A DNA stretch of 44,322 bases from positions 1-44,322 of the IMG/VR virus record IMGVR_UViG_3300006929_000030. One strand, given 5' to 3'. Below are positions 3-41,299 of the stretch, piece after piece; position 1 is the stretch's first letter; each line of letters begins with the position of its first letter. The DNA is from a virus. The translations under genes were made by a program, and so were the position numbers. The notes beneath the pieces were generated by a model. The model saw nothing but the letters and a program-made list of their open reading frames with translations, did no database searches and was not told where the DNA came from.

Positions 3-656
3 GGTAAGGATTTAGTGTTTACAGATAATGGTGATGCCACTAATATGAAAATCTTGGATGCCGCAGCCGGTATCAACGTTCCCGGAGAGGTCCAAACGAC
101 AGGGATTGGGTACACCGATGGTGATAACGCATTAACGATTGCAGACGGTGGTGGTATTACAGTAGCTCAAGACCTTACTATGTCAGCAGATAAAAGTATT
201 AATTTGCCACAGGGAGCTAAAGTCACGTTTACTGATGCTATTACAGATGATAGTATTGATGACCATGATGCTCAGGGTATTATATTTACCTTTACCGCAG
301 GGGCAACAGTAACTCCCTTTAGCCCAGTATATTTACATTCGGATAATGAAGTACGTGAGGCTGATTCCAGTGCTATTGCTACAATGCCTTGTATTGGGGT
401 TTCAATAAATACTTCTGATGTTACTGACGGAAATCCTATTGAAGTTATGTTAATGGGATTAATTCGAGATGAAACATTTAGCAACTTTACAGCGGGTTCT
501 ATATTGTACGTATCAACAACAGTAGGTGAACTTACTAATGATATTGACGTTGCCGCTGAGGCTAATAATGAAGTAATACAAGTAGTAGGACACGCAATTG
601 GTCAAAAACTAGTATTTATTCAACCATGCTTAACCACTTTGGAACACGGAGCTTAA
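3..656 (+). CDS. Tail fibre or virion surface protein, 5' end cut by window
   Basis: The frame is open from base 3 through the first ATG at 15, so the gene very likely starts upstream of the window. The N-terminal visible part is rich in Gly, Thr, Asp and Ala with short beta-type repeats (GITVAQDL, SINLPQGAKVTF) typical of phage fibre shafts. The C-terminal half (about residues 90-213) is a compact beta domain with PVYLHSDNEV and VVGHAIGQKLVFIQP. It ends two bases before the next fibre-like gene, suggesting one transcription unit. The exact role (shaft, decoration or adhesin) cannot be told from sequence alone. Confidence 0.6.
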   Translation, partial: GKDLVFTDNGDATNMKILDAAAGINVPGEVQTTGIGYTDGDNALTIADGGGITVAQDLTMSADKSINLPQGAKVTFTDAITDDSIDDHDAQGIIFTFTAGATVTPFSPVYLHSDNEVREADSSAIATMPCIGVSINTSDVTDGNPIEVMLMGLIRDETFSNFTAGSILYVSTTVGELTNDIDVAAEANNEVIQVVGHAIGQKLVFIQPCLTTLEHGA

Positions 657-6664: not shown

Positions 6665-6894
6665 AAGCCTTTCTTACAGGCGCGGTAAAAATGCCGTATG
6701 CAGAAGGGCTGAAATATGAGTATTGGATTGTTATGTTATCATTGTTAAAAAAAGGTATTCCGTATGATGTGTTAAGCGAATTAACCACTAATGAAATGTA
6801 TACCGTTATTTCTGTAAGTTCCGCGTTAGAGGAACGGGAAAATGACGAACTACAACGTCAACACAATCTAGCAATGAACAAAAGGAGTTTTTAA
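6658..6894 (+). CDS. Tail assembly chaperone, T domain reached by -1 frameshift
   Basis: Reading from the slip site gives RVKAFLTGAVKMPYAEG and onward, 78 residues added to 123 residues of the upstream product, for a fusion of about 201 residues. The domain is helical, with a predicted buried segment YWIVMLSLLKKGIPYDVLS and a charged tail. Independent initiation at the ATG at 6691 is less likely because no ribosome-binding site precedes it. The GT form would bind the tape measure or tube subunits while G alone acts in excess. Confidence 0.7.
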   Translation, partial: RVKAFLTGAVKMPYAEGLKYEYWIVMLSLLKKGIPYDVLSELTTNEMYTVISVSSALEERENDELQRQHNLAMNKRSF

Positions 6895-18400: not shown

Positions 18401-18430
18401 GACTATATTTTATTTATAAAAGGAGAACAC

Positions 18431-19195: not shown

Positions 19196-21399
19196 TGATT
19201 GTTGAGACAGAACAGCAGTACCAAGAAGCTTTAAATGTTCTTTTAAAACACGATGTTTGGACCGTAGACGTAGAAACTAACGGACTTGATGCATTTGGCA
19301 TGAATCAGTTATTCGGTGTTGGTGTAGGGATAAGCAACGGTCCAGACATTCAAACATTTTATTTTCCATTTCGACATCAACGAGGTGGAAACTTACCCTA
19401 TAAACTGCTTACAAATTTACTTTCCTACATGTCAAAGGTTAAAAGTTTAATTGGATATAATATTAAATTTGATTTAAGGTTCCTTGAAAAAGACGGATTA
19501 GATATTACTAATATAGATTTATTAGATGTGGTAGTTATGGTAAGACTTACTACACATACCAGCATACGGAATTTAAAACTTACTGACGCAATAACCCGCA
19601 CGTATGGCAAAGAGTATGCCAGTTACGATTCAGACACAAAGAAAATGTTGCGCTCAAAAGGCTGGAACAAAGATTTTTCATTAGCCGGACATAATATTAT
19701 AGGTGATTATTGTGCCTTAGATGTTTACTATACGCAAAAACTTTATGATGATTTATTACCTATAATTGAATCAACGAAACAGCAAGAGGTTTGGCAGTTA
19801 GAGATTGGTCTGACTAAAGTTCTTTATAATATGGAGCGTCAAGGAATTAGCGTGGATTCAGCTTATGCCTATTCTTGTATTAGAAAAATTAATGATAGGC
19901 GTTTAGAGCTAGAAAAACAAATTTATGAGATTGCAGGCAAAGAATTCAATATTAATAGTACCCATGATATAGCCGATGTGTTTCATTCTTTAGGTATTAA
20001 ATCAGAGGTTCCTACCGAAACAGGTAAAGAGTCATGGAGTGCCTATGCATTAGCGACAATTAACCATCCTTTATCAGGACTAATTAGACAACATAGAGCA
20101 TTATTAAAGTTGTCATCTACGTATCTTGAACCATATAAAGATAAGGATAGGTTAAATACATCTTTTTGCCATTGGGGAACAGTTACAGGACGATTAAGCA
20201 GTAGGGAACCTAATCTACAAAACATTCCAAGAAATTATTTTAATTTAGCTGATAGAAAATTATCCTCAGAGGATAGAGATACAATAAGGGGTAGAATAGA
20301 CGCTATGATATCGACCGACGCTTCCTTTTTAAGTGATGATGTTATTGATACATGGTCGTTTATGGGTGATGAGTCTTATGACGAGGATGACCCGTACCAA
20401 CTTTCCATTCGAAGATTATTTGTTCCTCGTGACGGTTACCAATTGGTTAGTTTCGACTATTCGCAAATGGAAGTTAGGGTCTTTCTTAGCTACTTACAAA
20501 ATAAAGAAATACAGGAATTGTTAGATAGTTCAACTGTAGATTTTCATGCCGAGGCTGCGAAAATTGCCTTTGATATTCATGAAGACCATGCCGAATTTAA
20601 ATATTATAGACAACTGGCTAAAGGAATTAATTTTGGTGTAATTTATGGCATAGGAGCCGAAAGTTTAGCCAGAGAATTAAACACGACTCAATCCCAAGCT
20701 AAAGATTATAAAAAACGTTATTTAGAGAATATGGTTGGGTCTAACCAATTTATTAATGGTGTTAGAAAAGCAATTAAAGAACGAGGTTGGGTTAGAAATA
20801 GATATGGTAGAGTTTATCAAATAGAGTCTGAAGGGAGTTACAAAGGAGTTAATTACCTAGTGCAGGGAACGAGCGCAGATTTGCTTAATTCGCGATTAAT
20901 AGAGGTTGATAAGTATTTAGCTGACACACCTAATAAATTACTATTGCAGGTTCATGATGAGATTATATGCGAAATTCGAGATGAGGATATGAAAGTCGCA
21001 ATTGAGAACATTAGGAATATTTTGCAAGCAAACGAATTAAATATTCCGTTATTTGTAGATGTTGAAGTAGGAAATCCTTCATGGGCAAATAAGGTAGATT
21101 ATAAAAAATGGGTTGCAAATTCTGAGAAAGGTGATATCCTAGCTCCATTAAATAATATGGAGGAAACACAAATGGCAAAGATATCACAACATCTAGGAGT
21201 AACAGTTCAAATCGGAGTAAACGGTTCCAATCAGTACGCGCGATTAGATTGTACTATGACAGATATTGACACCGAACAACCTATAGAGCCACAAATTGAA
21301 CAGTGTAAAAAAGCCTTAGAAAAAGTTTTTTGGGCAAACAAAGAGGAATTAGGCAGGCAAGTCAAGGCTATGCAGAATAAAGAATCGAGACCGGAGTAA
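19195..21399 (+). CDS. polA: Family A DNA polymerase with 3'-5' exonuclease and extra C-terminal domain
   Basis: 734 residues. The DEDD exonuclease domain comes first: TVDVETNGLD, GYNIKFDLRFL and DYCALDVYYT. The polymerase domain has motif A FDYSQMEVRV (about 420), the O-helix R472-x3-K476-x3-F480-x3-Y484-G, and motif C QVHDEI (about 586-590). F480 equals E. coli Phe762, the ancestral state rather than Tyr or Leu. No 5'-3' exonuclease domain. An insertion of about 60 residues (346-405, acidic) separates NLQNIPR from RRLFVP, normally close together. The last 75 residues are an added domain that begins at an in-frame ATG with its own SD. Overlaps the SSB stop by one base. Confidence 0.9.
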   Translation: MIVETEQQYQEALNVLLKHDVWTVDVETNGLDAFGMNQLFGVGVGISNGPDIQTFYFPFRHQRGGNLPYKLLTNLLSYMSKVKSLIGYNIKFDLRFLEKDGLDITNIDLLDVVVMVRLTTHTSIRNLKLTDAITRTYGKEYASYDSDTKKMLRSKGWNKDFSLAGHNIIGDYCALDVYYTQKLYDDLLPIIESTKQQEVWQLEIGLTKVLYNMERQGISVDSAYAYSCIRKINDRRLELEKQIYEIAGKEFNINSTHDIADVFHSLGIKSEVPTETGKESWSAYALATINHPLSGLIRQHRALLKLSSTYLEPYKDKDRLNTSFCHWGTVTGRLSSREPNLQNIPRNYFNLADRKLSSEDRDTIRGRIDAMISTDASFLSDDVIDTWSFMGDESYDEDDPYQLSIRRLFVPRDGYQLVSFDYSQMEVRVFLSYLQNKEIQELLDSSTVDFHAEAAKIAFDIHEDHAEFKYYRQLAKGINFGVIYGIGAESLARELNTTQSQAKDYKKRYLENMVGSNQFINGVRKAIKERGWVRNRYGRVYQIESEGSYKGVNYLVQGTSADLLNSRLIEVDKYLADTPNKLLLQVHDEIICEIRDEDMKVAIENIRNILQANELNIPLFVDVEVGNPSWANKVDYKKWVANSEKGDILAPLNNMEETQMAKISQHLGVTVQIGVNGSNQYARLDCTMTDIDTEQPIEPQIEQCKKALEKVFWANKEELGRQVKAMQNKESRPE
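21159..21174 (+). promoter_or_regulatory. Internal ribosome-binding site and ATG within the polymerase gene
   Basis: GGAGG at 21159-21163 lies eight bases before the in-frame ATG at 21172. Initiation here would make a 75-residue protein (MAKISQHLGVTVQIG onward, to 21399) from the same frame. In related phages a small protein of this appearance could be a separate gene. Confidence 0.5.
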
Positions 21400-21402
21400 C
21401 AT

Positions 21403-22344
21403 ATGAAAGACAACGCCAATGATGTATTTAAATCATTATTATCTAATAAAAAATTAAATTTATCTTTAGGTAATAGCGACCATTTTGAATACGAACGTAT
21501 TCCATTCGGAATACCTTCTCTTGATAATTTGACAGGAGGCGGTATTCCAAAAAAACGATTGACGTTAATGTATGGACCTACTAATGTAGGTAAATCATAC
21601 CTAGCGTCTCAAATTGTTAAAAACGCCCAAGTCAATGGTGGTACCGCTGGATGGATTGATACTGAATTATCGTGGGACGCTCAATGGGTAGAGCAGTGTG
21701 GAATTGATACTTCAAAAGTTTTGGTTTCTCAACCAGCTACTGGTGAAGAAGCCTTAGAGGTTGCACGAGAAATGATGTTAAATAGTATAGATGTTATTAT
21801 TTTAGATAGCATAGCTGGACTAGTTCCATCTGCTGTAGTTGATGAAGATTTTAGTTATTCACCGATGGCTTGGCAAGCTCGTTTTATAAACAGTTCGTTG
21901 CCAAGACTATTACCACATTTAATACATGGCTCAGCGTTTGTTTGTATTAACCAAGTTCGTTCTAGTTTAGGTCCTGTAGCTTTAGATAATATGCCAGGAG
22001 GATTAGCCCAAACATTTTTTGCTCATAGCCTACTTCAAGTTCGCCGCAATGGGTGGATTGAAGAAAACAAACAGCGTATAGGCTTTGATATGGAGGTTAG
22101 GCTTCGTAAGACAAAGGTGGGCGGTGAAAATTGGAGTAGTGCTGTTGTTCCGTTTAGGGTATCTGGAGGCATTGATATACTAGAAAGTTATATTAGAGAA
22201 GCGTTAGATAAAGGTTTGATTACTAGGTCAGGTGCATGGTATTCATATAATGATGAAAAGGCTATGGGCTTAAATGGTTTAAAACAATTATTTTTAGACG
22301 ATGAGCAAAAAACCGATAATTTAATGCGTCAGGTATTAACGTGA
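21403..22344 (+). CDS. recA: RecA-like recombinase
   Basis: 313 residues. Walker A is GPTNVGKSYL (about 57-66) and Walker B DVIILDSIAGLVPS (about 130-143); the start FGIPSLDNLTGGGIPKKRLT matches the RecA entry motif 'G...LD..LGGGip.Gri'. SYSPMAWQARFINSSLPRL corresponds to the RecA helix after loop 1, and INQVRSSLG to the IqQi-R motif. It is shorter than cellular RecA at both ends, as is common in phages. It would drive strand exchange with the nucleases downstream. SD GGAG precedes the ATG; the next gene's GTG overlaps its stop by four bases. Confidence 0.85.
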   Translation: MKDNANDVFKSLLSNKKLNLSLGNSDHFEYERIPFGIPSLDNLTGGGIPKKRLTLMYGPTNVGKSYLASQIVKNAQVNGGTAGWIDTELSWDAQWVEQCGIDTSKVLVSQPATGEEALEVAREMMLNSIDVIILDSIAGLVPSAVVDEDFSYSPMAWQARFINSSLPRLLPHLIHGSAFVCINQVRSSLGPVALDNMPGGLAQTFFAHSLLQVRRNGWIEENKQRIGFDMEVRLRKTKVGGENWSSAVVPFRVSGGIDILESYIREALDKGLITRSGAWYSYNDEKAMGLNGLKQLFLDDEQKTDNLMRQVLT

Positions 22345-22634
22345 AGCCTAGAGATTATACAAAACAAGAAAATTTAATTGCCGATTGTTTATCAGATTTG
22401 GGTTTTAGATATGAAGAACAAGCGGCATTTTTATCTTATACAGTCGATTTTTGGATTCCTGAACTTCAATTAGTTATTGAGGCAGATGGAGTTTATGGAC
22501 ATTTAAAAAAACGCGACGAGTATAGAGATAGTCAATTATTAAATAAAACCCCTATTGAAAAAGTTGTGCATATAAAAGAGACCACCAAAAATAAAATAAA
22601 GGAAAAATTATGTCAAGTCTTGAAAAATTATTAA
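22341..22634 (+). CDS. DUF559/Vsr-like PD-(D/E)XK endonuclease
   Basis: 97 residues with a GTG start overlapping the RecA stop. The core YTVDFWIPELQLVIEADGVYGH gives the D...E-x-D metal site of the DUF559/very-short-patch endonuclease fold; an N-terminal helix (TKQENLIADCLSDLGF) and the following RDEYRDSQLL fit this family. Likely cuts DNA during recombination or repair, between RecA and the Cas4-like nuclease. Small size suggests a single-domain nickase or endonuclease. Confidence 0.65.
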   Translation: MKPRDYTKQENLIADCLSDLGFRYEEQAAFLSYTVDFWIPELQLVIEADGVYGHLKKRDEYRDSQLLNKTPIEKVVHIKETTKNKIKEKLCQVLKNY

Positions 22635-23281
22635 ATCCCTCAACACCACTAGGACCAAATCAAGATGAATGGTTATTAAAATCTATTGATAGCCATTTAA
22701 CTAAACCATCACAATCAGCAAGAAAGGGCGTTTTTTATCCGTCAGCTTTAGGAAGCATATGTGACCGCTACCTGTATAATTGTTATCATGGATTAGTTCA
22801 GGAGGAGGAAATTAATGCTACTACACGTCGAATATTCGATGTTGGTGATTATTTAGGATTGCGATATGAAAAATATCTTAGCGGAATGGGTATTTTATTA
22901 GGAACAGAAATTTCATTAAAATGTGAAATGCCTCCTATGTCAGGTAGGCTAGACTTTTTAATAAAACATCCAGAGCATGGAGAAACCATAATAGAATTAA
23001 AATCTATTAACCAAAGAGGATTCACAGCTTTAAAAGAACCTAAACCTGAACATATAATTCAAACTCAAATATATTTAAACATATATCCAAAAGGTAAAGA
23101 AGGAATTGTATTATATGAGAATAAAAATAATCAGTCTATAAAGGCATTTAAGATTACTAAAGACGAGCAGATTTGGAATAATATTAAAGACCGTTGTTTT
23201 CGCATCATGAATATGACAGAACAGCCCAAAGATTGTACAGGTTTAAGGTATTGCGCATGTAAAAAGGAAGATGTAATTTAA
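22610..23281 (+). CDS. Cas4/AddB-like exonuclease with probable Fe-S cluster
   Basis: 223 residues, starting inside the previous gene behind AAAGGA. The PD-(D/E)XK core is GRLDFLIKHPEHGETIIELKS (D...E-x-K), followed by QTQIYLNIY, the Q-x3-Y helix of RecB-type nucleases. One Cys pair near the N terminus (ICDRYLYNC) and three Cys at the C terminus (DCTGLRYCAC) reproduce the split four-Cys iron-sulfur layout of Cas4 and AddB. A 5'-3' or recombination exonuclease feeding RecA is likely. No CRISPR array is nearby. Confidence 0.75.
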   Translation: MSSLEKLLNPSTPLGPNQDEWLLKSIDSHLTKPSQSARKGVFYPSALGSICDRYLYNCYHGLVQEEEINATTRRIFDVGDYLGLRYEKYLSGMGILLGTEISLKCEMPPMSGRLDFLIKHPEHGETIIELKSINQRGFTALKEPKPEHIIQTQIYLNIYPKGKEGIVLYENKNNQSIKAFKITKDEQIWNNIKDRCFRIMNMTEQPKDCTGLRYCACKKEDVI

Positions 23282-24333
23282 TGAATATAACAATTGCTAG
23301 GCTTAGAAGTAACGTAAAATATAATGGACCTTTAAAAACTGTGCTGGATAGTTTTTTTGAAAATTATGTTAAATGGATGAAAGACAATCCGCAACATGAA
23401 TATAAAACTTATAATGTATCTTTTGATAACACTAGACCAAAACGAACACCAGAAACTATTGAATGGGCTGACGTAATTATTATTCCTAGCGATTCAGAAT
23501 TTAGATATCATGGTAAAGTACCTCAAATAAATCCAAAAGATTTAGCGAGGTCAGAAGAGCATATGGATAATATTAGACCATATTTTAAAAATAAACATGT
23601 TATAGTGTGGCAATCAGATAGGGCGGATACAGAAGATTTATATAGAAACGAAACATTAAAAAATATTGAGCTTAAATCATTTAACTCAATTGATGAGTTG
23701 GATTTTTCTGCCAATATTCATGGTATGAAATATCATTTTATACAAACCTTAAAAAGTCCCTTATTTGGCGACGTTATTAACAAGACTTCTGATTTCGCAT
23801 ATTGGGGAAAAATGCGTGGAGTAGATTTAACCGAAACGGATAATATTAGTTTGGAGACTAAACGTCTTATAGGTACCGAGAGAGGAAAACTCATTCGTCA
23901 AATTTATCGCTCTGATTTATCAACGGTTTTAGTGGGAGGTTTTCCAAGTGGAATAGTAAGGCAGAGCAAATGGATTAAAGATTGGCATATTTTATATCCT
24001 ATGCTGGAACCTTGCAGGTCAACACTATGCTTTAATTGGTTGGACCCAACGGCTACCTCGGCAAGGTACGCAGAAGCCTTAGCGATGAATATAGTGCCGT
24101 TTGTTTGGAAAGAATATGATAAAAACAACACCTATAACATTGAGGATTGGCAGAGAGTCGCAAGTTTTGAAGACTTTTATGAAAAAGTTTTGCAGTTAAG
24201 AGATAATACATTTTTTGAGTCTCGAATTGAGTCATATAAAAATAATTTTAAACAAATTCTGTTAAGTGAGGACGAATATCTTAAAGAATTTAGTGATAAA
24301 ATGAATGTATGTATTAAGGAAAATATAAAATGA
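23281..24333 (+). CDS. GT-B glycosyltransferase, possible DNA glucosyltransferase
   Basis: 350 residues, one-base overlap upstream and four-base overlap (ATGA) downstream. The N-terminal Rossmann half starts MNITIARLRSN and has WADVIIIPSDSEF; the C-terminal half has FAYWGKMRG, VLVGGFPSG and SARYAEALAMNIVPFVW. The R-x2-E of RYAE, followed by a small-residue turn and a buried strand, matches the nucleotide-sugar site of GT-B enzymes. Overall length and order of motifs resemble T4 beta-glucosyltransferase (R-V-W-E then TMASDAVML). Its place inside the replication module supports DNA as acceptor, but no base hydroxymethylase is in this window. A sugar-surface glycosyltransferase remains possible. 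Confidence 0.5.
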   Translation: MNITIARLRSNVKYNGPLKTVLDSFFENYVKWMKDNPQHEYKTYNVSFDNTRPKRTPETIEWADVIIIPSDSEFRYHGKVPQINPKDLARSEEHMDNIRPYFKNKHVIVWQSDRADTEDLYRNETLKNIELKSFNSIDELDFSANIHGMKYHFIQTLKSPLFGDVINKTSDFAYWGKMRGVDLTETDNISLETKRLIGTERGKLIRQIYRSDLSTVLVGGFPSGIVRQSKWIKDWHILYPMLEPCRSTLCFNWLDPTATSARYAEALAMNIVPFVWKEYDKNNTYNIEDWQRVASFEDFYEKVLQLRDNTFFESRIESYKNNFKQILLSEDEYLKEFSDKMNVCIKENIK

Positions 24334-24851
24334 AGACTCCTGAATCTACCAAATGGACGCCCGAATTTGCGTTAGAAGTAGCTGACCGTTTCATGAAGGA
24401 TTTAGCTATTCCTGCTATAGGAAAAGAAGTAACCAAAGAATATGATTTAGATTTTACAGAATTGATGAACGCCACAAATGTAGAACTAGAGCAATACTTG
24501 GTTATGTTTGGAGGATACAGGGCTTATTTAGAAAATCAGGTAGCGGACACCACAGCGGTTAAAACTGCACTAGATGCGTCGTTTAATGAAAGTTTTTCCA
24601 CAGCCATTTATAAATTAGCTGAAGAGCGTGAAAACGCAGGACTAAAAAAACTTACGCGCGATGAGCTGAGAGGTGCGGCTTTGTTAAAATATGAACAACT
24701 CAAACGTTTACGTCAAGATGTAATAACTCAGGAAGCAATACATATAAGGCTGTCAGGATTATTAAATGCATATAAAGCTACCTATGATGCGGTATCTAGA
24801 ATCGTTACCCTCAGAAATTTAGGAAGGGAACAAACTAGAAGTTCCTATTAA
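24330..24851 (+). CDS. Hypothetical helical protein of the recombination cluster
   Basis: 173 residues, overlapping the glycosyltransferase stop by four bases. Nearly all helical with long charged heptads (LEQYLVMFGGYRAYLENQVADT, KLAEERENAGLKKL, LRGAALLKYEQLKRLRQD). No recognised family. Tight coupling with recombination genes suggests an accessory DNA-binding or mediator role, unproven. Confidence 0.5.
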   Translation: MKTPESTKWTPEFALEVADRFMKDLAIPAIGKEVTKEYDLDFTELMNATNVELEQYLVMFGGYRAYLENQVADTTAVKTALDASFNESFSTAIYKLAEERENAGLKKLTRDELRGAALLKYEQLKRLRQDVITQEAIHIRLSGLLNAYKATYDAVSRIVTLRNLGREQTRSSY

Positions 24852-24852
24852 A

Positions 24853-25044
24853 ATGGAAAGTAATTTTAGCTTATTAGATGAACATGAATTGTTAGACTTA
24901 TGCGCAAAAACGCAAGTGTGTGTAGGCGGTATACGATATGGTATTATGTTTAAAGATGCTGACACGTTACAACACACAATTAGACAATTACGAAATATTG
25001 TTTTAGCTATGAACGATATTATTATGGATGAATTTGATAGATAA
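24853..25044 (+). CDS. Small acidic hypothetical protein
   Basis: 63 residues, ATG directly after the preceding stop. Acidic N terminus (NFSLLDEHELLDLCAKTQV), a glycine turn and a C-terminal amphipathic helix (TLQHTIRQLRNIVLAMNDII). No family recognised. The end overlaps the resolvase frame by 17 bases, consistent with coupling. Confidence 0.5.
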   Translation: MESNFSLLDEHELLDLCAKTQVCVGGIRYGIMFKDADTLQHTIRQLRNIVLAMNDIIMDEFDR

Positions 25045-25558
25045 TGAATGGCATTTTTATGCCTCAATTCCAAAAGTTATGTATATGGGAATAGACTGTA
25101 GCTCTAAGGCTATTCATGCTGTTTTGGTCGATGATGATGAACGCGTTATCGGACAAGGAAAATGGACTGGAAAATCAAGCGATTTTGCCACAAAATTCTT
25201 AGAAATGATTGATAATTTTAACGATTCTTTTAGTAATATAAACCATGCAATAATTATAGCATCAATCGAGTCAGCTATATTTATACAAAATCCAAAATCA
25301 TCTTTAAGGATTGCAACTGTTGTAGCTGGTTGTTTAGTTATTTGCCATCAAAACTCAACCGTATGCGTTGAAGTAGATAATCGTAAATGGAAGAAATATA
25401 TATTAGGGAAAGGCAATAGCAACAAACAAGACATTAAAAATTGGACTGATGCAAAATGGTCAAGCGCAGTTCAATTTACAGAGCAGGATTGGTCTGATGC
25501 GTCATGTATTGCTATATGGTCAAAAAGGAGTTTTAAGAATGAGTTTACAGAGAACTAG
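25028..25558 (+). CDS. RuvC-like Holliday junction resolvase
   Basis: 176 residues in the longest form. RNase H-fold signature: YMGIDCSSKAIHAVLV (first Asp on strand 1), ASIESAIFIQ (Glu), and QDWSDASCIAIW (two Asp near the C terminus). These four acidic residues are the RuvC metal ligands. It would cut branched DNA before packaging, consistent with its place between RecA-linked genes and terminase. Start is uncertain: ATG at 25028, 25079 and 25085 are all in frame and none has a clear SD; the catalytic domain starts right at 25085. Confidence 0.7.
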   Translation: MNLIDNEWHFYASIPKVMYMGIDCSSKAIHAVLVDDDERVIGQGKWTGKSSDFATKFLEMIDNFNDSFSNINHAIIIASIESAIFIQNPKSSLRIATVVAGCLVICHQNSTVCVEVDNRKWKKYILGKGNSNKQDIKNWTDAKWSSAVQFTEQDWSDASCIAIWSKRSFKNEFTEN

Positions 25559-26015
25559 ACCTGAGATTCAGGTGGCGTTTACAGCGCCTAAAAAACAAGA
25601 AAAGAAAGAGTATGTGGAAAAATTTACTGAAGAATATCCTGACATGGAAGCCGTGAAGGCGGAACATGGTAAAGTTGTGTTTTGTAAATATACAGACTGC
25701 TTATACAACAAAGAATTAAAAGGTTTTCAACGAACAACAGGAAAAATATTGAAGAATTTGACATATAAACCTATAGGTGAGCAAGAACATATTTGGTCCA
25801 CAATATGTACCAGAGATGAAATTGCCTTAACCTATCATGAATATATTAGTAAAGACGCGCAGAAAGTTAAGGTTCCTGCATGCTTTACGTCTGTAACTGG
25901 TGTATCAGGGCATATGGACTTTAGTAGATTATTACAACCTGACGGTAGCCCTTATGGAGGAAACATTTCATCGCAACATGCCTCCGATAGTGGTTACGGT
26001 GTATTTGATAGGTAG
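25539..26015 (+). CDS. Hypothetical protein before the terminase genes
   Basis: 158 residues from the ATG at 25539, chosen because AAGGAG lies eight bases upstream. Highly charged N terminus (PKKQEKKEYVEKFTEEYPD), a Cys pair VFCKYTDCLYN, then FQRTTGKILKN and a C-terminal region with scattered Cys and His (STICTRDEIALTYHEY). A zinc or nucleic-acid role is possible but no family was recognised. Overlaps the resolvase by 20 bases. Confidence 0.5.
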   Translation: MSLQRTRPEIQVAFTAPKKQEKKEYVEKFTEEYPDMEAVKAEHGKVVFCKYTDCLYNKELKGFQRTTGKILKNLTYKPIGEQEHIWSTICTRDEIALTYHEYISKDAQKVKVPACFTSVTGVSGHMDFSRLLQPDGSPYGGNISSQHASDSGYGVFDR

Positions 26016-26019
26016 TAGT

Positions 26020-26532
26020 ATGCCAAAACGTATTCCACAAAATGTCAAAACTCGATGTTTAGAATTATTTTTATCTGGCATGCCTGCTAAATCTATTGCT
26101 GAAACCGTCACGACTGAATTTGAAGTAGCTGTAAAGCCCTCTACTATATACGCATGGGCTACCCAATATAATTGGGGAGAAACCCGGGCGGTTGCTAGAG
26201 CCACCTCTGTTGAAAAAGTTGCGGAGTCAGAAACCCAAAGATATGCCAGATTACAAGAAGAACATTTAAATACCTATGAAACATTGCGTAGGAAAGCTAA
26301 TGCCGAATTGGGAACCATGAACTTTGAGCGCGCATCAGATGCCGCAAAAGCGTTAGATTTAGGCATTAAAGGCGAGCGTAATGTAATGTCTGGCATGATT
26401 AATTTGCAATTTGTACAAGAAATTATGTCTGTATTGGTAGAGGAAATTAGTGATGCTGATACCCTATCAAGAATTGCAGTGAAATTAAAAGCGTTAGTAA
26501 ACTTAGAGGCGGAAACAAGTGTCAAACAATAA
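26020..26532 (+). CDS. terS: Terminase small subunit
   Basis: 170 residues from the ATG at 26020, four bases after the preceding stop. Residues 1-55 form an HTH (VKTRCLELFLSGMPAKSIAETV then KPSTIYAWATQYNW) typical of small terminase DNA-binding domains, followed by a coiled coil (TQRYARLQEEHLNTYETLRRK) for oligomer assembly and a C-terminal helix. It recognises the packaging site and stimulates the large subunit, whose GTG start lies 14 bases inside its 3' end. Confidence 0.75.
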   Translation: MPKRIPQNVKTRCLELFLSGMPAKSIAETVTTEFEVAVKPSTIYAWATQYNWGETRAVARATSVEKVAESETQRYARLQEEHLNTYETLRRKANAELGTMNFERASDAAKALDLGIKGERNVMSGMINLQFVQEIMSVLVEEISDADTLSRIAVKLKALVNLEAETSVKQ

Positions 26533-28204: not shown

Positions 28205-30100
28205 ATGACAATAACTAGCCGTATATCTTTAAACTTACCATTATCAGAAACCCATTCAGGAAAGAAATTATCTGAACAATCTGAAATAATATTAAACCAT
28301 AGGTATTATTTAAAAAATATTAATTCTGAACCTATTGAAGGTGCTGACGGTTTATTTGATAGAGTGGCGTGGTCATTAGCAAAGGTGGACAGGCAGTATG
28401 GAGCATTACCGGTAGAGGTTGAGTTAACCCATAAAGATTTTTATTTTATGATGAGAAACCTATATTTTCTCCCTAACAGTCCTACCTTAATGAACGCAGG
28501 TACAGAACAAGGAACTATGTCTGCCTGTTTCGTACTTCCATTAAACGATTCTATGAAAGACATTATGAAAACTGCAACAGATATGGCTATGGTGCAGAAA
28601 TATGGTGGTGGAACAGGATTTGCTTTATCTAATTTGCGACCTAAAGGTTCACATATTACCACAACGCATGGAGCCGCTTGCGGTCCTATTCAAGTTTTAA
28701 AGACCTTATCTAGCGTTTCAAGCATGATTACCCAAGGCGGTAAGCGTGATGGCGCTAATATGGCTGTTATGAATATACGACATCCAGATATTTTAGAATT
28801 TATTCGCTGTAAGTCCGTAGAAGGTGATATTCATAACTTTAATATTTCCGTTGGAGTTGATTCTAATTGGATGAAAGCCGTTGAGAATAATATGGACTAT
28901 GATTTAATTGACCCACACACTAAACAAATTACTGGTCAGTTAAATGCCCGTGAGGTATTTAACGAAATGGTTCAAGGAGCATGGAAAAACGGAGAACCTG
29001 GAATGGTATTTCTTGATAGAATCAATCAAGACAATCATGTATCAGAACAGTATGGTAATATGATTGCTACAAACCCATGCGGTGAACAACCTTTACTTCC
29101 AAATGAATCGTGTAATTTAGGCTCGATTAATTTAGCGCAATTTTATCAACCTAATATTCGAACTAAAAAATGGCAATTAAAAATTAACTGGGAAAAACTA
29201 CAAAAAATAACCAGAACAGCTGTTCATTTCCTAGATAATGTTATTGATGCCAATGAGTACGCTACTGAAGACATTGAAGCCATGACTAAAGCTACACGCA
29301 AAATTGGTTTAGGAGTTATGGGGTTTAGTGATTTGTTAATTCAATTAAAAATTCCTTATAATAGTGAGGAAGCCAGAGAGGTTGGCGGAGAACTAATGAA
29401 AAAAATTACTCAATGGGCTAATGAACAATCAATAGAGTTAGCGCGTGAAAGAGGAACATTTCCTGCTTGGAACTCAACAGCTTTTGTCGATAACGATGGA
29501 AATACTATTCATTACCGTAATCATTGCAAAATGACCGTAGCACCTACTGGAACAATTAGTATGATTGCAGACTGCGCGAGTGGTATTGAACCAACGTTTG
29601 CGCTTACATGGAAGAAGCAAAACATTCTTGAAGGCAAGACCTTACACTATGTAAACAAATATTTAGAACAAGAGCCTTTTTATTCTGAGGAACTATTGGA
29701 ACATTTAGCTTCTGGAGGAACATTAAGTGACGCTGATGACTCTTTTGATATTCCTGATTGGGCCAAAGAAGTATATATTACCTCACCTGAAATTGCCCCT
29801 GATGACCACGTATTAATGCAGGCTGCTTTCCAAGACCATGTTGACGCAGGCATATCAAAGACTATAAACTTTGATAATGGCGCTACCCCTGCCGATGTCG
29901 AGCAAGCGTATTTCTTAGCTTGGAAAAGCGGTTGTAAAGGTATAACAGTTTACAGGGCGGGCAGTAGAGAAAAAGAGGTACTTGTTAAAGGTAATACTGA
30001 GCAAGAAAAAATAGCATGTTGCGACACACCACAAATAGTACAGGATAGTGGCTGTGAAACATGCAAGAGCTGTGGGTGGAGTGCCTGTACAATAGCATAA
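28205..30100 (+). CDS. nrdJ: Class II ribonucleotide reductase, adenosylcobalamin-dependent
   Basis: 631 residues behind TAGGAGG. Signature residues are present: [12 protein letters not shown], redox Cys C108 (SACFVLPL) pairing with C303 ([11 protein letters not shown]), catalytic N290-x-C292-x-E294 ([10 protein letters not shown]), phosphate loop [10 protein letters not shown] (about 447-456), and a C-terminal Cys-rich tail ([12 protein letters not shown]) that reduces the active site. Absence of an NrdB-type gene and the NrdJ-like tail indicate class II, which is oxygen-independent and uses B12. It makes deoxynucleotides for phage DNA and implies the host makes or imports cobalamin. Located beside terminase rather than with replication genes. 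Confidence 0.9.
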
Positions 30101-30954: not shown

Positions 30955-32532
30955 ATGAAACTTTCTGAGTATTTACCAGAGGTGCCTGCCATAGCTGGAC
31001 AAATGGCACAACTTAACCAACAGATTAATCTTATGCAATTAATGAAAGCCTCTAATGACACAGGTCATAGTCCATCAATTGGTTTAGATAATGTTGTAAA
31101 TTCAATGATTAAAAACCAAATGGCGTATAGGCAACAATTAATTAGCGACTTGCAAACTATAGCCATGACTGTGGAAGAAGTTCGAGGTCCAGTTGGTCAT
31201 ATTACCAGTGAGGTGTTTAGGCGAGGCTTTGAATGGAAAGCTAAAGTTGATAAAGCCGACCCGAATGAACTCATTGAATTTACTAAATTTATGACTCACT
31301 GTAATTCATTTGGTCAATCTCTTGAAGAGGTTTTAAGACAGGTTCATTGGGATTTAAACTGTATAGATGATGCCTTTATTTTCTTATCTAAAACATATCA
31401 TGTATCTGATGACGGAAAATTAACGTCGAAAGTAGATGAGATACGCAGAATTAATCCTGCTCTAATTGAATTTGATTTAGATGAGAATGGACTGCCTCAA
31501 CGACAAACCTATTTATGTGTGATACATAGAAATATTACATCTGAGAAGCCTGGTGAATGTGAAGAGTGCGGTAATGAATTTAGACCAGCTATGTATAAAT
31601 ATACTCACAGAAATCAAATTTTGTATTTACTAGATACTGAGGTTATACACCTTTCAAAATTTTCTCCAACAGAAACATACGGTTGGAGTCCTTTGTTAAC
31701 GGTTTTTGAGAAATGCCTCACTTTAATTGGAATGGATAAAAACCTTTATCGTTATTTCTTTGAGCGAAAAGCTCCAGGAAGTATGTTGATGGTTACAACT
31801 GACGACCCAGAAAGTTTACGTCGCGAACGCGAAAATATTCGAAGTCAAACTAGACTTGACCCTAACTTTATTCCAATGGTAGCGGTTTCCTCAAAAACAA
31901 ATAGGGGTCGCGTTGATTTAGTTAGACTTTTTCATACTCTACAGGAAATGGACTATTTGCCTGTCAGGCAAGAGATAAGGGAGCGTATTGCGGCTATGTG
32001 GGGAGTTTCTCCTGCGTGGCAAGGTGCCGCTGATGCCTTTGGAGGTCTTAGTACACAAACCCAACAACTTGTTGTGATGAGTAGGGTTGTAGAAGGCGAC
32101 CAACGATTATTCCACACTAAAGTTTTGCCCACACTATTAAAGAATTTTAATATTGAGCAATGGGATTTACTGCTACAAACTCCCGAAGAAAAAGCGGAAG
32201 CCACGAGAATTTCTATGGCACAACAACGAGTTTCTATGGCTAGTCAATTAAATGGTATGGGATTTATTGTAACTATAGCAAATGATAGTAGTGATTTAGG
32301 AGTTGCTTTAGAAGATGCGCAATTTATGGTAGCTAATAAACCTGACGAACCTGAAGAGAGTGAAGATTCCATGTCTGAATTTGGAGGCTTGTTTAATTCA
32401 GAGGAAATGGAAGATAGGGATATTGATGAATGGTCTGAAGCAAGGGACAAAAAAGGTGAGGATAAACAATGGGGATTTCGAAGATTAGCCGGAAGACCTC
32501 CTAAAGGTTCAAAGGTTGAGGATATAAAATAA
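30955..32532 (+). CDS. Portal protein
   Basis: 525 residues. Central features match portal proteins: VHWDLNCIDDAFIFL, EIRRINPALIEFDLDENG, a helical stem region and SPAWQGAADAFGGLSTQTQQLVV near the end of the clip/crown region. The C terminus is acidic then basic (EWSEARDKKGED). An unusual CEECGNEF with nearby His (about residue 200) suggests an inserted zinc site in the wing. The dodecameric portal forms the DNA gate at the capsid vertex. It begins the head module after control element A. Confidence 0.8.
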   Translation: MKLSEYLPEVPAIAGQMAQLNQQINLMQLMKASNDTGHSPSIGLDNVVNSMIKNQMAYRQQLISDLQTIAMTVEEVRGPVGHITSEVFRRGFEWKAKVDKADPNELIEFTKFMTHCNSFGQSLEEVLRQVHWDLNCIDDAFIFLSKTYHVSDDGKLTSKVDEIRRINPALIEFDLDENGLPQRQTYLCVIHRNITSEKPGECEECGNEFRPAMYKYTHRNQILYLLDTEVIHLSKFSPTETYGWSPLLTVFEKCLTLIGMDKNLYRYFFERKAPGSMLMVTTDDPESLRRERENIRSQTRLDPNFIPMVAVSSKTNRGRVDLVRLFHTLQEMDYLPVRQEIRERIAAMWGVSPAWQGAADAFGGLSTQTQQLVVMSRVVEGDQRLFHTKVLPTLLKNFNIEQWDLLLQTPEEKAEATRISMAQQRVSMASQLNGMGFIVTIANDSSDLGVALEDAQFMVANKPDEPEESEDSMSEFGGLFNSEEMEDRDIDEWSEARDKKGEDKQWGFRRLAGRPPKGSKVEDIK

Positions 32533-32537: not shown

Positions 32538-33863
32538 ATGCCTATAACACAAAAAGACGGTAAATGGTATTGGGGTACTCAAGGACCATTTAATACTAAA
32601 GAGAAAGCCCAATCAGTAGCGCAGGCGGCTCACGCATCAGGATATAAAAAATCTGTTACTGAATTTTTAATGTTTCAAAAACAAGATAAAAAATATGACA
32701 AAAATGAAGTACAATACGATGAAGCCAATGTAGAGCAGTTGGCATCTGGACAGAAATGCGGAACTTGTTACTATTTTCAATTGGAGGAAAATAAGTGCTT
32801 AATAGTTAAAGGTTCGATTCACGATGACATGTGGTGTAATAAATGGGAACAAATGGATTATGTCTTTGTTAAAAGTGTGGCAAACATAACTAAAGCGCAG
32901 ATTGAACAATTAAATACGGCAAACGTCTATACCATTCAAGAGTTGGCAGATGTAGATATAACATCTACAAATGTAAATCTTAGCGTAAATGTTCTTAAAC
33001 AATTACAAGCACAGGCTAGGTTGCAATTATATAAAATTGAAAACGATATCAACGCTTTTGAATTATTACCTTTACAAAAAGGTCGAGGACTTAATCGTCT
33101 ACCGACACCTAGCAACACCGATTTATTTTTTGATATGGAAGGTATTGCTGATAGTAATTCAAGTTTAGATTATTTGTTTGGCATTTACCATTTAAATGAT
33201 TCTGAATATGTGTATAAAGAATTTTGGAGTCATGACTATGAAGAGGAAAAATTAGCCTTTAGTTCCGTGTTAAACTTTTTTAAAACATACATAGAAGAAA
33301 ATCCTGATAGCAGAATTTATCATTTTAATCATTACGAAACTACCGCCTTACGCAAATTATCACAAAAACATAATATGGGTTCTGACGTACTAGAAGGCAT
33401 TTTAAGTAAGTTTGTGGACCTATATCAAATTATGAGAGAAGGTGTAATGGTATCAGAACCTAGATATAGATTAAAAAATATTGAAAAGTTTTATATGCCA
33501 AAACGAGAGGATGCGATTGTAAACGCATTAACTAGCATGGATACATATAAGCAATGGCAACAAGATGGCAACGTTGAGCTGTTGAAAGATATCTCGAATT
33601 ATAATTTCCAAGATTGTTTGTCTACTAAATTATTGCGCGACTGGTTAAACACCATTAAAACGCTTTATAAAGAAGACGGAATTGGAAACGTGTTTACATC
33701 TGATAATCCTGGTATATATACTCCTACCTATGGAAAATACAAGAAAAAGAAGAAAACCATGAAGAAACAGTCGACTACGATTAACGGAGAGCGTCTCAAA
33801 CCAGATGAGTTGATGTCTGAGTCATCTTTATCTAAACTGACGCGGTTTTTATCCAATGACTAA
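32538..33863 (+). CDS. Virion-domain protein fused to DEDD-type nuclease
   Basis: 441 residues immediately after portal. Residues 1-40 (DGKWYWGTQGPFNTKEKAQ, AAHASGY) match a short module recurrent in phage head proteins. Residues about 73-110 hold CGTCYYF ... KCLIVKG ... WCNKW, the four-Cys HiPIP-like virion motif. A helix-hairpin-helix-like stretch follows (ITKAQIEQLNTANVYTIQELA). From about 195 a DEDD/RNase H-like nuclease resembles the YprB/TM0106 group: LFFDMEGIA, FNHYETTALRKL and YNFQDCLSTKLL carry the acidic residues. A packaged nuclease that enters with phage DNA is an attractive inference; a head-assembly DNA-processing role is the alternative. Confidence 0.6.
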   Translation: MPITQKDGKWYWGTQGPFNTKEKAQSVAQAAHASGYKKSVTEFLMFQKQDKKYDKNEVQYDEANVEQLASGQKCGTCYYFQLEENKCLIVKGSIHDDMWCNKWEQMDYVFVKSVANITKAQIEQLNTANVYTIQELADVDITSTNVNLSVNVLKQLQAQARLQLYKIENDINAFELLPLQKGRGLNRLPTPSNTDLFFDMEGIADSNSSLDYLFGIYHLNDSEYVYKEFWSHDYEEEKLAFSSVLNFFKTYIEENPDSRIYHFNHYETTALRKLSQKHNMGSDVLEGILSKFVDLYQIMREGVMVSEPRYRLKNIEKFYMPKREDAIVNALTSMDTYKQWQQDGNVELLKDISNYNFQDCLSTKLLRDWLNTIKTLYKEDGIGNVFTSDNPGIYTPTYGKYKKKKKTMKKQSTTINGERLKPDELMSESSLSKLTRFLSND

Positions 33864-34125
33864 TGTTACCTGCCCGAAATGTTCAGGCGCAATGCATTTA
33901 GACGTTGAGAATGACCTCATTTGTTTAATGTGCGGTAAACGCATAGCATTAAGGAGAGATATAGATTATGACCAAGATTCCAGCAGAAGCAAAAGAGTCC
34001 CTAATCAAGAAACGGTTATTAGGCGATACATGGGAAGAACTAGCGCAGTACCTGAAAAACTCATACAACGTTCGCGTAGACCGAACAACAGTGGCTCGTT
34101 GGTACGCAAAAGAAGTTTCAGTTGA
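33856..34125 (+). CDS. Zinc-ribbon protein overlapping the phosphoesterase gene
   Basis: 89 residues, overlapping the previous stop by eight bases. Two C-x2-C knuckles (TCPKC and CLMCGKR) within the first 27 residues form a zinc ribbon. The last 52 residues, Arg/Ser-rich, are encoded in the same DNA as the start of the phosphoesterase (158 bases of overlap in a different frame). It may be a genuine mini-protein with a disordered tail; the alternative is that only the ribbon is meaningful. Confidence 0.5.
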   Translation: MTNVTCPKCSGAMHLDVENDLICLMCGKRIALRRDIDYDQDSSRSKRVPNQETVIRRYMGRTSAVPEKLIQRSRRPNNSGSLVRKRSFS

Positions 34126-35317
34126 TTCAATTCATATTGATGATATAGAAACAGATTCCTTACGCGACCGAATTAGACTAGATAGACGCGTTGCAACCTA
34201 TCAATCATTATCTAGGTATCATAAACGTCTGTATGAAACTTCGTTAAAGGAAGGTTTATTGCAAGACGCATTGGTAGACGCTATTCAAGAAGCTACTATT
34301 CCACTATCAAAAGTTCCTGTAACTAAATCTCCCAAACCCACACGTAAGATTAGAGGCGAGTCTAGCCAAATTGTTGTAGCACCTCTTACCGATACGCATA
34401 TTGGAGAATACGTTTCATTGGAACAAATGAATTATCTTAATTCGTATGACTTCGATATTTTTAATAAAAGACTACATGGTTGGGCAAAAACTGTGTTATT
34501 GCTTACTGAGTTGCGCAGAGCTTCGGTTCCTATTACTGAATTAATAATACCGATGTTAGGAGATATGATAAGTGGAGATATCCATGATGAGTTGATTAGA
34601 ACTAATCAGGCTCCAACAATGATGCAGATGGCTAGAGGAGCTAATTTAATTGCGCAGGCTATCATGTACTTAGCACCTCATTACGATAAGATTACAATTC
34701 CATGCGTTGTAGGTAATCATGGTCGTATGCACCGAAAGCCTTCAATGAAAGATAAGTATGTCGATTGGGACTATATGTTATATCAATGGGTAGCGGCGTT
34801 TTGTAGTGAGCAGAAAAATATTGAGTTTAAAATTAGTAAAAGTTATTTATCGTCCTTTAAAGTGTTCGATAAGAATATTTTAATCATGCATGGCGACAGC
34901 GCGTCAGGCGCTGGTTCAATTAGCACTATTACAAAAGTGTTAACAAACCTAAGGTCAGTATTGCAATATCGAACAGCCCTCGAACAGGAAATTTCTAAAG
35001 TAAATGCTGAAGACCCCGACAGCGAGTTGCCTGTAACATTTGATTCGGTAATGTTGGGACACTTTCACAGAGTGGATGAGTTAGATATTGGAACTGGTCA
35101 TGCCATTATTTGTGGATGTGTCAAAGGTGGAGATGAATTTGCAATGACTCGACTAGCAGTCATTACCAAGCCCCAACAAATTGTGACCTATTTCCATCCG
35201 CGATATGGATATCTAGGAAAAGAGACAATTTATTTAAATCAATTCGATAATGATGAATTTGTGTTCCATGACGATTTATCATCAACTTGGTCTGATTTCA
35301 AGAAAAAACAAGTATAA
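33968..35317 (+). CDS. Calcineurin-type metallophosphoesterase with N-terminal HTH
   Basis: 449 residues; ATG behind AAGGAG. Residues about 5-50 resemble an HTH (ESLIKKRLLGDTWEELAQYL, RTTVARWYAKEV). The phosphoesterase domain has the full metal set: D142-x-H144 (LTDTHIG), GDMISGD, GNHGRMH, MHGDSAS and GHFHRVDE. This is the Mre11/SbcD-like phosphoesterase fold used for DNA or nucleotide hydrolysis. Two nucleic-acid-type hydrolases next to the portal gene suggest a role at packaging, injection or host DNA attack. The true substrate cannot be told. Confidence 0.75.
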   Translation: MTKIPAEAKESLIKKRLLGDTWEELAQYLKNSYNVRVDRTTVARWYAKEVSVDSIHIDDIETDSLRDRIRLDRRVATYQSLSRYHKRLYETSLKEGLLQDALVDAIQEATIPLSKVPVTKSPKPTRKIRGESSQIVVAPLTDTHIGEYVSLEQMNYLNSYDFDIFNKRLHGWAKTVLLLTELRRASVPITELIIPMLGDMISGDIHDELIRTNQAPTMMQMARGANLIAQAIMYLAPHYDKITIPCVVGNHGRMHRKPSMKDKYVDWDYMLYQWVAAFCSEQKNIEFKISKSYLSSFKVFDKNILIMHGDSASGAGSISTITKVLTNLRSVLQYRTALEQEISKVNAEDPDSELPVTFDSVMLGHFHRVDELDIGTGHAIICGCVKGGDEFAMTRLAVITKPQQIVTYFHPRYGYLGKETIYLNQFDNDEFVFHDDLSSTWSDFKKKQV

Positions 35318-36138: not shown

Positions 36139-36765
36139 TTAGTCAGACATATATTCTGAGAAGGCTTTTAGTAATGATTCATTGGTAGGAACGCTTTGAT
36201 GCAACTTCAATTTAACTATACTGGGAATGTAGGCTCGATGTCTTTTTACTATAGGCAGTCTGGCTAAGTATTCTTTTGTGCTTTCCGCTTTTACTTTGTA
36301 TTCTTTAAGACCTTTGTTCCACTGTTTGTCTGTTTGCGAAACTTTTAAGGTTCTTAAATACCATTTCATTAATTCGGTAAACACTTTTACGAACTCTGGT
36401 CCGTGAGCGGCGCATGTGTGACGATACCATCCTCTGTCTGACTCGTATCGGCAGTTCCATTCTTTATGAATAAGGGCGTGGGCTACTTCATGGCACAATA
36501 CTAATGGAGTGCATCCCCATCTTTCCATAACATGGATTCTGTGTTCTCTAGCTCGGTACCATGACTGTCTGCCATCTGCTCGAAATGTAACTGATGGTGT
36601 ACTTTTGGTAGAATATCTTGAAAATGCTTTATCTACAAATTCTTGAACTTCTGAGGTGTCGAGTTTTACATCTAATTCAGGAAAGGTCTTTCCAATATTC
36701 CATCCGAAGTCGTAAACTTTTTGTCTTTGGGTATCTCTGGTTTTTCTGTACTTGGTATTTGGCAT
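36139..36765 (-). CDS. SprT-like/TIGR04338-like zinc metallopeptidase
   Basis: 208 residues, the only minus-strand gene. The zincin motif is LCHEVAHALIH with H92, E93 and H96; the third ligand is probably H121 in AAHGPEFVKVF. The N-terminal RDTQRQKVYDF and the AAHGPEF segment resemble a putative metallohydrolase family common in Actinobacteria (TIGR04338). The gene has its own promoter (TTGACT-17-TACCAT) and SD AAAGGAG. Its isolated opposite orientation inside the head module suggests separate, probably early, expression. Substrate unknown; protein cleavage at DNA-protein crosslinks or of a host factor are options. Confidence 0.75.
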   Translation of the reverse strand: MPNTKYRKTRDTQRQKVYDFGWNIGKTFPELDVKLDTSEVQEFVDKAFSRYSTKSTPSVTFRADGRQSWYRAREHRIHVMERWGCTPLVLCHEVAHALIHKEWNCRYESDRGWYRHTCAAHGPEFVKVFTELMKWYLRTLKVSQTDKQWNKGLKEYKVKAESTKEYLARLPIVKRHRAYIPSIVKLKLHQSVPTNESLLKAFSEYMSD

Positions 36766-39542: not shown

Positions 39543-40457
39543 ATGGACAAACACATTGACGTTCGCGAATGGGAGATTGATTACTCAACAAGACAATCAA
39601 CGCACCCCAATACTAAATATCAGCCTTTTAGGCAAGCAACCAGCACGACTGCCGCTACCTTATTAACATGTGGTCAAGGTGAAATAGCTGTAAACTTAGT
39701 TACTAATCCCAGAATTGAAGCGACGGATATTAGCACGTATACAGCTACAGGGTCAGCTATTTCAAGAGATACAGGACAGCAATCTACTGGCACAGCATCT
39801 TTGTTAGTCAATCCTGCTAACTCTGCCGCAGGGGAAGGATTTTATTGGACATCACCGCTTATTCCTTTTGAGCATTTTCCGCAACATATAACAGCCCAGA
39901 TTGAACATCGAGGAGCTTCGGCTTCAGGAGCCGTTAAACTTGAGATACGAGACGCAGACGGTTCAACTGTATTAGCAACGTCAGGCAGTTCAAACTTAGC
40001 TACCTCATGGACTAGACTTACTGCCCAATATACTATTCCAGGTTCTACTGATGCGGCAGCCTATAGTTTATACGTAACGACTCAAGCCCAACACAATATC
40101 AACTATTACGTTGATAAAATTGGATGGGAAGTTCGTGATGACACAATTGCAGTATCAACTTACGTAGACGGTTCAGTAGGAATTAACTACGAATGGACTA
40201 GTACAGAAAATGCTTCAACATCTATTAAGCGACCTGGCATGACACAAGTTCGAGGAATAAAAGTCACTAACGAATCTAGCACAGGTGGAGAAATAGTGTA
40301 CGTTGCATTTGACCATACAGCCACAGCATCTACGGGTATACCTGTAGGGGCTGGTGAGTCGTACGAAACGCAGTTACCTATAGCCTTTAAAGATAAAGTA
40401 AGCGTAATTTCAGCCACAGGCACACCGACAATTCGTGGCGTTATCTGGGGTATATAA
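39543..40457 (+). CDS. Virion surface protein with carbohydrate-binding-like domain
   Basis: 304 residues, ATG behind TAGGAG. Residues about 50-205 look like a jelly-roll of the CBM4/9 or concanavalin type: VNLVTNPRIEA, TGSAISRDTGQQSTG, then WTRLTAQYTIP and INYYVDKIGWEV. The C-terminal 70 residues are a second beta domain (IVYVAFDHTATASTGIPVG) that resembles spike or decoration domains. Probably a capsid decoration or fibre protein able to bind glycans; inferred from fold-like patterns only. Confidence 0.55.
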   Translation: MDKHIDVREWEIDYSTRQSTHPNTKYQPFRQATSTTAATLLTCGQGEIAVNLVTNPRIEATDISTYTATGSAISRDTGQQSTGTASLLVNPANSAAGEGFYWTSPLIPFEHFPQHITAQIEHRGASASGAVKLEIRDADGSTVLATSGSSNLATSWTRLTAQYTIPGSTDAAAYSLYVTTQAQHNINYYVDKIGWEVRDDTIAVSTYVDGSVGINYEWTSTENASTSIKRPGMTQVRGIKVTNESSTGGEIVYVAFDHTATASTGIPVGAGESYETQLPIAFKDKVSVISATGTPTIRGVIWGI

Positions 40458-41299
40458 TGACTAACTTAGATGTTTATCAACAAGTCTCAGAAGATGCATC
40501 AATTGTTGTCTTGGAAAAGGCATACGGAGCAACTACAGTTGATGATATTGCTGAAGCGTTAGAAGAATATGAAAGATTGTTTAAGGCAGGTATAGCATCT
40601 GCCGGTGAAATACTTACCTTATCTCGCGCGTATCCAGAAAATGATGTATATAAACAATATGCTGATGATGTCCCTGATGAACCTGTAGTGGTAGGAGGAC
40701 CAGCATCTGTAGAAGTGATTGACCGAGAAGGTCATTTAATTAAGATGTCTGCACTAGAAAAAGCCTTCGCGAAATATATGTCTAACTTTAGAACTCGCAA
40801 CGCTATGGTATTACATTCAGATGTACAAGTAGGATGGGCGTTGCCTGCCTACATAACAAAAAGCGGACAGGTATTTAAATCTGGTGTGAATGAAGAAGGT
40901 TTGTTTTTCATTACAGAGATGAGAAACGATACCAATATAGCTCAACGCGTATTAGACCAAATTAATGAAGGTAAACTTAAATCATATTCTATTGCAGGCT
41001 CTGCAACAAAAACCGAACAGCTTATGAAAGACAACTCGCCTTACATGGAAGTTCAAGAGTTAGACTTGGCTGAAATTACAGTTTGCGAAGTTGGAGTAAA
41101 TCAAGGAGCCAAGTTCGATATTTTGAAAACTGAAGGCGTTGAGTCAACACAAACGTGCCAAGACGGAAGTTGCTTAGTAAATACAGAAACAAAGCAGGCT
41201 GAACGTAAACCATTTAGACCTAGTTTGCAATTTTATAAATCTAATAATACACTGGACAAAATTAAAACATTTCAATATTGGATAGATACAAGGAGTTAA
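40457..41299 (+). CDS. Prohead maturation protease candidate
   Basis: 280 residues, overlapping the previous stop by one base. From about 85 it shows the herpes-type prohead protease pattern: NAMVLHSDVQVGWALP (H120), EEGLFFITEMRND, then GKLKSYSIAGSATKT (Ser 176 or 178 as nucleophile) and LDLAEITVCEVGVNQGAKF (equivalent to 'l.EvSlv..PaN..A'). N-terminal 80 residues are helical. It would process scaffold and capsid protein. Its place three genes after the capsid gene is unusual; the protease normally precedes it. Confidence 0.65.
   Translation: MTNLDVYQQVSEDASIVVLEKAYGATTVDDIAEALEEYERLFKAGIASAGEILTLSRAYPENDVYKQYADDVPDEPVVVGGPASVEVIDREGHLIKMSALEKAFAKYMSNFRTRNAMVLHSDVQVGWALPAYITKSGQVFKSGVNEEGLFFITEMRNDTNIAQRVLDQINEGKLKSYSIAGSATKTEQLMKDNSPYMEVQELDLAEITVCEVGVNQGAKFDILKTEGVESTQTCQDGSCLVNTETKQAERKPFRPSLQFYKSNNTLDKIKTFQYWIDTRS

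Follow-up and report, generated by a model that had tools for sequence, protein, structure and literature searches.

A predicted TM0106-type exonuclease block carried as an accessory cassette in a conserved viral gene downstream of portal

The gene immediately downstream of portal in the window (the whole 44,322-base IMG/VR virus record analysed here, from a marine tailed virus) encodes a protein in which an exonuclease-like block, apparently taken from a cellular protein, is flanked by the parts of a conserved viral gene (Table 1). It is suggested, at a probability of roughly one half, that this is a post-portal carrier gene furnished with enzyme cassettes and that the predicted exonuclease is probably docked at the portal or in the inner head, where it would trim or degrade DNA ends. 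Enzyme cassettes in post-portal genes are already known; what is surprising is that the nuclease belongs to a set of several inserts that replace one another.

Table 1. Coordinates of the fusion gene, its modules and predicted active-site positions, and its immediate neighbours in the window.
Feature	Positions	Strand	Basis or remark
Portal gene, directly upstream	30955..32532	+	phrog_18178 portal, 2.4e-43
Fusion gene	32538..33863	+	441 aa; Pfam and NCBIfam matches
KWYWG..GPF module, aa 1-47	32538..32678	+	beta-beta-beta-alpha in model
Cys module, aa 55-107, C74-x2-C77-x9-C87-x12-C100	32700..32858	+	weakly HiPIP-like
HhH and linker, TM0106 type, aa 108-194	32859..33119	+	TIGR03491 from aa 112; alignment
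RNase H-like DEDDy nuclease domain, aa 196-371	33123..33650	+	PF13482; fold
Exo I motif D199-M-E201	33132..33140	+	kept in 53/53 cellular-type rows and L002
E267, Exo II-like position (N-H-Y-E)	33336..33338	+	kept in 53/53 cellular-type rows and L002
D294 of F-V-D-L-Y motif	33417..33419	+	kept in 53/53 cellular-type rows and L002
Exo III motif Y355-N-F-Q-D359	33600..33614	+	kept in 52/52 rows ungapped at this site, and in L002
Conserved viral tail module, aa 384-440, VFTS..PGI.TPTYG, Lys-rich	33687..33857	+	tail HMM
Small zinc-ribbon-like ORF	33856..34125	+	overlaps fusion gene by 8 bases; arranged likewise in L002 and L016
HTH and metallophosphoesterase (exonuclease-like), downstream	33968..35317	+	phrog_284, 2.3e-44

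Make-up of the post-portal protein

The reading frame starts with ATG five bases beyond the portal stop codon, directly after portal as the original prediction had placed it; the frame is real and its conservation is not due to chance. RNase_H_2 (PF13482) matches aa 196-371 over the entire Pfam profile (positions 1-165 of 165) at 6.2e-29 and 101.5 bits against a cut-off of 22, and TIGR03491, the NCBIfam profile of the TM0106 family, matches aa 112-370 at 167.7 bits (cut-off 97.45). Because the latter match covers only profile positions 215-462 of 462, the C-terminal half, the protein is read from its profile matches as carrying a TM0106 nuclease block and not as a full member of the family. 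This is the only enzymatic domain that Pfam and NCBIfam recognised in the 441 residues; no PHROGs family matched the protein, and no MuF, capsid or portal family was recognised in its constant parts in Pfam or PHROGs. The HhH region, the linker and the RNase H-like DEDDy domain are common to the fusion protein and the TM0106 family, whereas the Cas4-like N-terminal half and the helicase of that family are absent, viral modules being joined instead, and the viral Cys module stands where that family has its own cysteine cluster (C-x2-C-x2-C-x5-C). Domain and profile matches support the proposal, made from the sequence, that virus-specific modules are fused to a DEDDy nuclease of the TM0106/YprB type.

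Genome contigs, when scanned, yielded 556 relatives, the best 80 of which are 38-44% identical over about 270 aa. The active-site alignment summarised in Table 1 comprised 51 of these 80 genome loci together with L052 and L058, two viral contigs with copies of cellular type; L136 was dropped for a stop codon and the others by choice. The DEDDy motif set is present as D199, E201, E267, Y355 and D359, with Glu at the Exo II position and not the classical Asp. In the structure model pLDDT is mostly above 90 across aa 110-375, and a second-look structural alignment placed the exonuclease regions of family B DNA polymerases at the top, with Z of 14-15 over 160-179 residues. The alignment with entry 1wn7 sets the ends 193..371 of the fusion protein opposite 135..327, and in what we take to be the numbering of KOD polymerase, D199, E201, Y355 and D359 would fall on D141, E143, Y311 and D315. 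The polymerase exonuclease domain has the same fold and the same DxE ... YxxxD order; the fusion protein differs in having no polymerase and in the Glu at Exo II. Plain Foldseek of the model against the PDB gave no match at E up to 0.001, and at the same threshold three matches were obtained in a viral library, two of them giant-virus proteins named RNase H superfamily or YprB-like. A sequence search against the PDB gave no significant match, and hhalign against the polymerase exonuclease, represented by a single PolB-like sequence (L219), aligned motif III only, at a probability of 1.9%, a result to which no weight is given. The DEDD motifs of the YprB/TM0106 group that the original prediction had seen in the C-terminal half are borne out by both profile matches above their cut-offs and by the kept acidic residues, and the predicted fold resembles that of a family B polymerase exonuclease, with DxE, an acidic Exo II residue and YxxxD in place.

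The KWYWG module was found in 5 of 50,697 isolated-phage records, always as the N-terminal part of one type of gene product, three being annotated as head maturation protease and two as hypothetical, and in metagenomic L004 it is fused to a DUF2213/head maturation protease. Such proteases (Pantoea phage PA-1, Edwardsiella phages GF-2 and Edno5) share the N-terminal module and the head cluster with the fusion protein, and differ in having a protease domain (DUF2213 in L004) where the fusion protein has a nuclease. The earlier description of this module as typical of head proteins holds for the five isolated-phage genes and L004 but not generally, given that most copies in L020-L051 are small separate ORFs and that the one in L030 adjoins a non-head gene. 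It was also considered that the KWYWG protein might be the maturation protease itself, which was rejected in view of the S78/XkdF-type protease gene at 40457-41299, separate from the fusion gene.

For the Cys module the same description finds no support in isolated phages, where nothing significant was found, but the module recurs without the nuclease in the same post-portal gene in L140-L147. The Pfam HIPIP profile scored 18.1 bits against it (cut-off 22), 22.9 bits in a six-frame search and 10.5-14.9 bits in those relatives that matched. The Cys and tail modules were modelled with low confidence, and a second model of the Cys module had a mean pLDDT of 58. A W-E-Q-x-D stretch following the module hinted that it could be the TM0106 cysteine cluster with insertions; this was rejected, and the module is taken to be viral because L146 has C-N-K-W-E-Q-N-D after its Cys module yet carries no nuclease.

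Cellular relatives and selection on the nuclease block

Complete cellular proteins, examined in 36 rows (34 of the 80 genome loci, with L052 and L058), are mostly about 1,000-1,230 aa long and have a cysteine cluster just ahead of the HhH region; in the cellular protein of L059, TIGR03491 matches over nearly the whole profile and a helicase family lies behind. Likeness of the viral protein to these relatives begins only after about aa 107. The cassette of the window and of its relative L002 is probably that half of a cellular TM0106-family protein which comprises the HhH region and the DEDDy 3'-5' exonuclease; it would have been severed from the Cas4-like and helicase portions and placed after the viral Cys module. 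This is a clear example of viral uptake of the nuclease block alone from a cellular protein of several domains. In a tree of 39 rows, which include 35 of the 80 genome loci and in addition L052 and L058, the two distinct viral nucleases form one clade with support of 100/99 and a long stem. Since both viral copies fall in one fully supported, long-stemmed clade, a single old capture would fit; a tree of this size does not identify the donor.

The window protein and that of L002 are 57% identical over their whole length. The acidic site is intact in L002, the one diverged nuclease-bearing viral relative. Between the two sequences pS is 0.80 (saturated) and pN 0.29 over the whole gene, with 0.74 and 0.32 respectively in the nuclease part, and by this comparison the block is kept as protein, under purifying selection. 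The fusion protein is known here from a metagenomic record, and the TM0106-type block had no match among the 50,697 isolated-phage records.

The post-portal locus among relatives

The window portal is 30% identical to the HVTV-1 portal and matches PF04860 at 2.1e-07, below the cut-off. A portal scan gave 389 relatives, the best 80 of which were kept; 83 loci were examined, and the counts are drawn from the 41 that contain both portal and metallophosphoesterase, many of the others ending early. These 41 include near copies (the window and L001; L144 and L145), and profile seeds were drawn from among them (nine for the tail module, seven for KWYWG and four for the Cys module), the RNase H profile being built from 31 of the 36 cellular-type rows and the two viral copies. 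By the tail HMM, a gene with the tail module stands between portal and metallophosphoesterase in 41 of 41 loci, the KWYWG module is present in 24 and the Cys module in 10. The nuclease block occurs in three, namely the window, its copy L001, and L002, which amount to two distinct sequences; TopoIB occurs in six and a zincin-like block in two. L016 (on the same contig as L139), L017 and L019 have portals 65-69% identical to that of the window and the same neighbours, and at the corresponding site encode a 236-246-aa protein that shares the KWYWG and tail modules but has a different middle, in which there is no nuclease. Across relatives the length of the post-portal gene ranges from about 230 to 1485 aa.

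Given its absence from 38 of the 41 comparable loci, the nuclease is an accessory cassette rather than a part common to these particles, which narrows the idea of a particle-borne nuclease to a rare cassette. That the nuclease is common in this virus group was rejected on the same count, and further scans aimed at nuclease-bearing parts gave only L001, L002 and cellular-type copies. The constancy of the gene after portal, its constant modules and its free middle suggest a carrier with exchangeable cargo, a reading limited by there being only two distinct nuclease-bearing sequences. The post-portal site may be an exchangeable cargo site, the middle in relatives being other things or nothing recognised.

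Among the other inserts, the Pfam Topoisom_I family matched in L019 (5.5e-17) and, together with PolyA_pol (5.2e-23), in L153 (9.3e-15). The zincin-like assignment is based on visual inspection, which revealed an HExxH stretch in L191, and on the resemblance between L214 and L191, and no family matched that stretch in either. No enzyme family matched the other long post-portal variants scanned, which reach 1,485 aa. The ORFs of L191 (3940-6459) and L214 (2809-5361) have the KWYWG module, and that of L191 continues with an EAP.GT...GPRGGLYY stretch like a repeat of HVTV-1 gp115 and gp116 and then the zincin-like HEAVH stretch. The TopoIB-like ORF inserted after portal in L019 (3084-4754), like those in L018, L146, L159, L163, L188 and L205, terminates in the C-terminal module of the portal itself (RDIDEW...), which looks like a transfer of the portal tail to the enzyme. 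A 1166-aa ORF in L153 (4232-7732) and L157 (8713-12213), scanned in L153, joins this portal C-terminal module to TopoIB and to a tRNA nucleotidyltransferase of CCA type that has an HD domain.

Possible roles and comparison with known systems

A place for the fusion protein in the particle is plausible because the gene lies after portal, the tail module is universal and head maturation proteases also have the KWYWG module. It is suggested that the constant part, the tail module often accompanied by KWYWG, probably anchors the protein at the portal or in the inner head while the middle takes up enzyme cassettes, and that the work of the nuclease is likely to be trimming or degradation of DNA ends at the portal, either while the DNA is packaged or when it is delivered into the cell. 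If the constant modules do target cargo to portal or head, they would be ready-made address tags, and enzyme carriage by non-MuF tailed viruses, for packaging or for entry, would become testable.

PMC5576092 and PMC5512222 provide a precedent for head proteins that are encoded directly behind portal and whose enzyme domains can be exchanged. MuF proteins and toxins are, according to PMC5576092, encoded immediately downstream of portal, as is the fusion gene, and have exchangeable nuclease and metallopeptidase domains. However, the cassette is C-terminal in MuF proteins and here has constant modules on either side, and the present group is further distinguished by its cassettes (DEDDy exonuclease, TopoIB, CCA enzyme). 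No MuF domain was found in the fusion protein among Pfam matches up to E 1, nor in PHROGs, which leaves room for a distant relation. Polyvalent proteins, as PMC5512222 describes them, are multidomain, encoded among virion genes and proposed to enter with the DNA; they have at least two disparate enzymatic domains per polypeptide, whereas one is recognised in the fusion protein, and the terms RNase H and DEDD are absent from the main text of that paper. P1 DarA and Hdf are internal head proteins tied to defence (PMC12810830). The original statement that no described system is known with the present combination agrees with a literature search by title and opening of the abstract, in which most subscription journals were outside the range covered and no paper described head modules with a TM0106/YprB-type nuclease.

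A wider version of the carrier reading, put forward tentatively, would make the post-portal gene a general loading site in a large marine virus group, at which exonuclease, TopoIB, tRNA nucleotidyltransferase and zincin are swapped and shipped in the particle by a second, MuF-independent system; a proofreading-type exonuclease would there meet DNA at the portal.

Given that a metallophosphoesterase is conserved in the same cluster, a nuclease there need not be part of the virion, and the protein could instead be an intracellular enzyme that acts with metallophosphoesterase, RecA and RuvC in recombination or end processing before packaging, its viral modules targeting terminase or portal and the protein not being borne in the particle. 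In keeping with this, the metallophosphoesterase adjoins in all 41 comparable loci (by choice of loci), RecA, RuvC-like, PolA and DnaB-like genes are present in the window, and in the cellular relative L059 the TM0106-type block is fused to a helicase. However, this is rather unlikely for two reasons: first, the constant gene is found in 41 of 41 loci and the nuclease in three, so that the basic role of the gene is not nucleolytic. Second, the replication genes of the window lie apart from the fusion gene.

The alternation of zincin-like and nuclease cassettes at the post-portal site raises a less probable alternative to the carrier reading, that of a counter-defence effector injected with the DNA to attack the host genome, a plasmid or guide RNA at entry, and delivery has been proposed for MuF and polyvalent proteins that are encoded after portal and bear nuclease and metallopeptidase domains (PMC5576092 and PMC5512222). 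However, the fusion protein had no PADLOC match, an exonuclease requires ends, and the TopoIB and CCA-enzyme cassettes resemble DNA and RNA maintenance, not attack; the proposal is considered improbable. That the captured block is inert filler, tolerated in a loop-rich structural protein and of no enzymatic role, would suit the rarity of the nuclease and the freely varying length of the gene but is very hard to reconcile with catalytic residues invariant at the overall identity to L002 and with saturated synonymous change against the low pN of the nuclease part.

The closest isolates to the virus of the window by portal and capsid are haloarchaeal tailed viruses, at 28-30%, and its RecA, PolA and DnaB are of bacterial type. 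Bacterial-type replication genes (DnaB, DnaG-like, PolA, RecA, RuvC-like) occupy 16270-26532, and NrdJ, a B12-dependent ribonucleotide reductase, lies between terminase and portal at 28205-30100 and is found also in L016. The zinc-ribbon-like ORF overlaps the metallophosphoesterase ORF by 158 bases in a different frame, and both overlapping frames look conserved in L002 and L016. A long minus-strand ORF inside the head cluster (36139-36765) has a HEVAH stretch and a SprT-like match of 0.0042, below the cut-off. In L002, positions 4870-6778 contain a row of short ORFs sharing an N-terminal hydrophobic stretch (..WYLSQIDA.., ..WYVSSLDS.., ..WYMSNLDA..), which are perhaps tandem duplicates.
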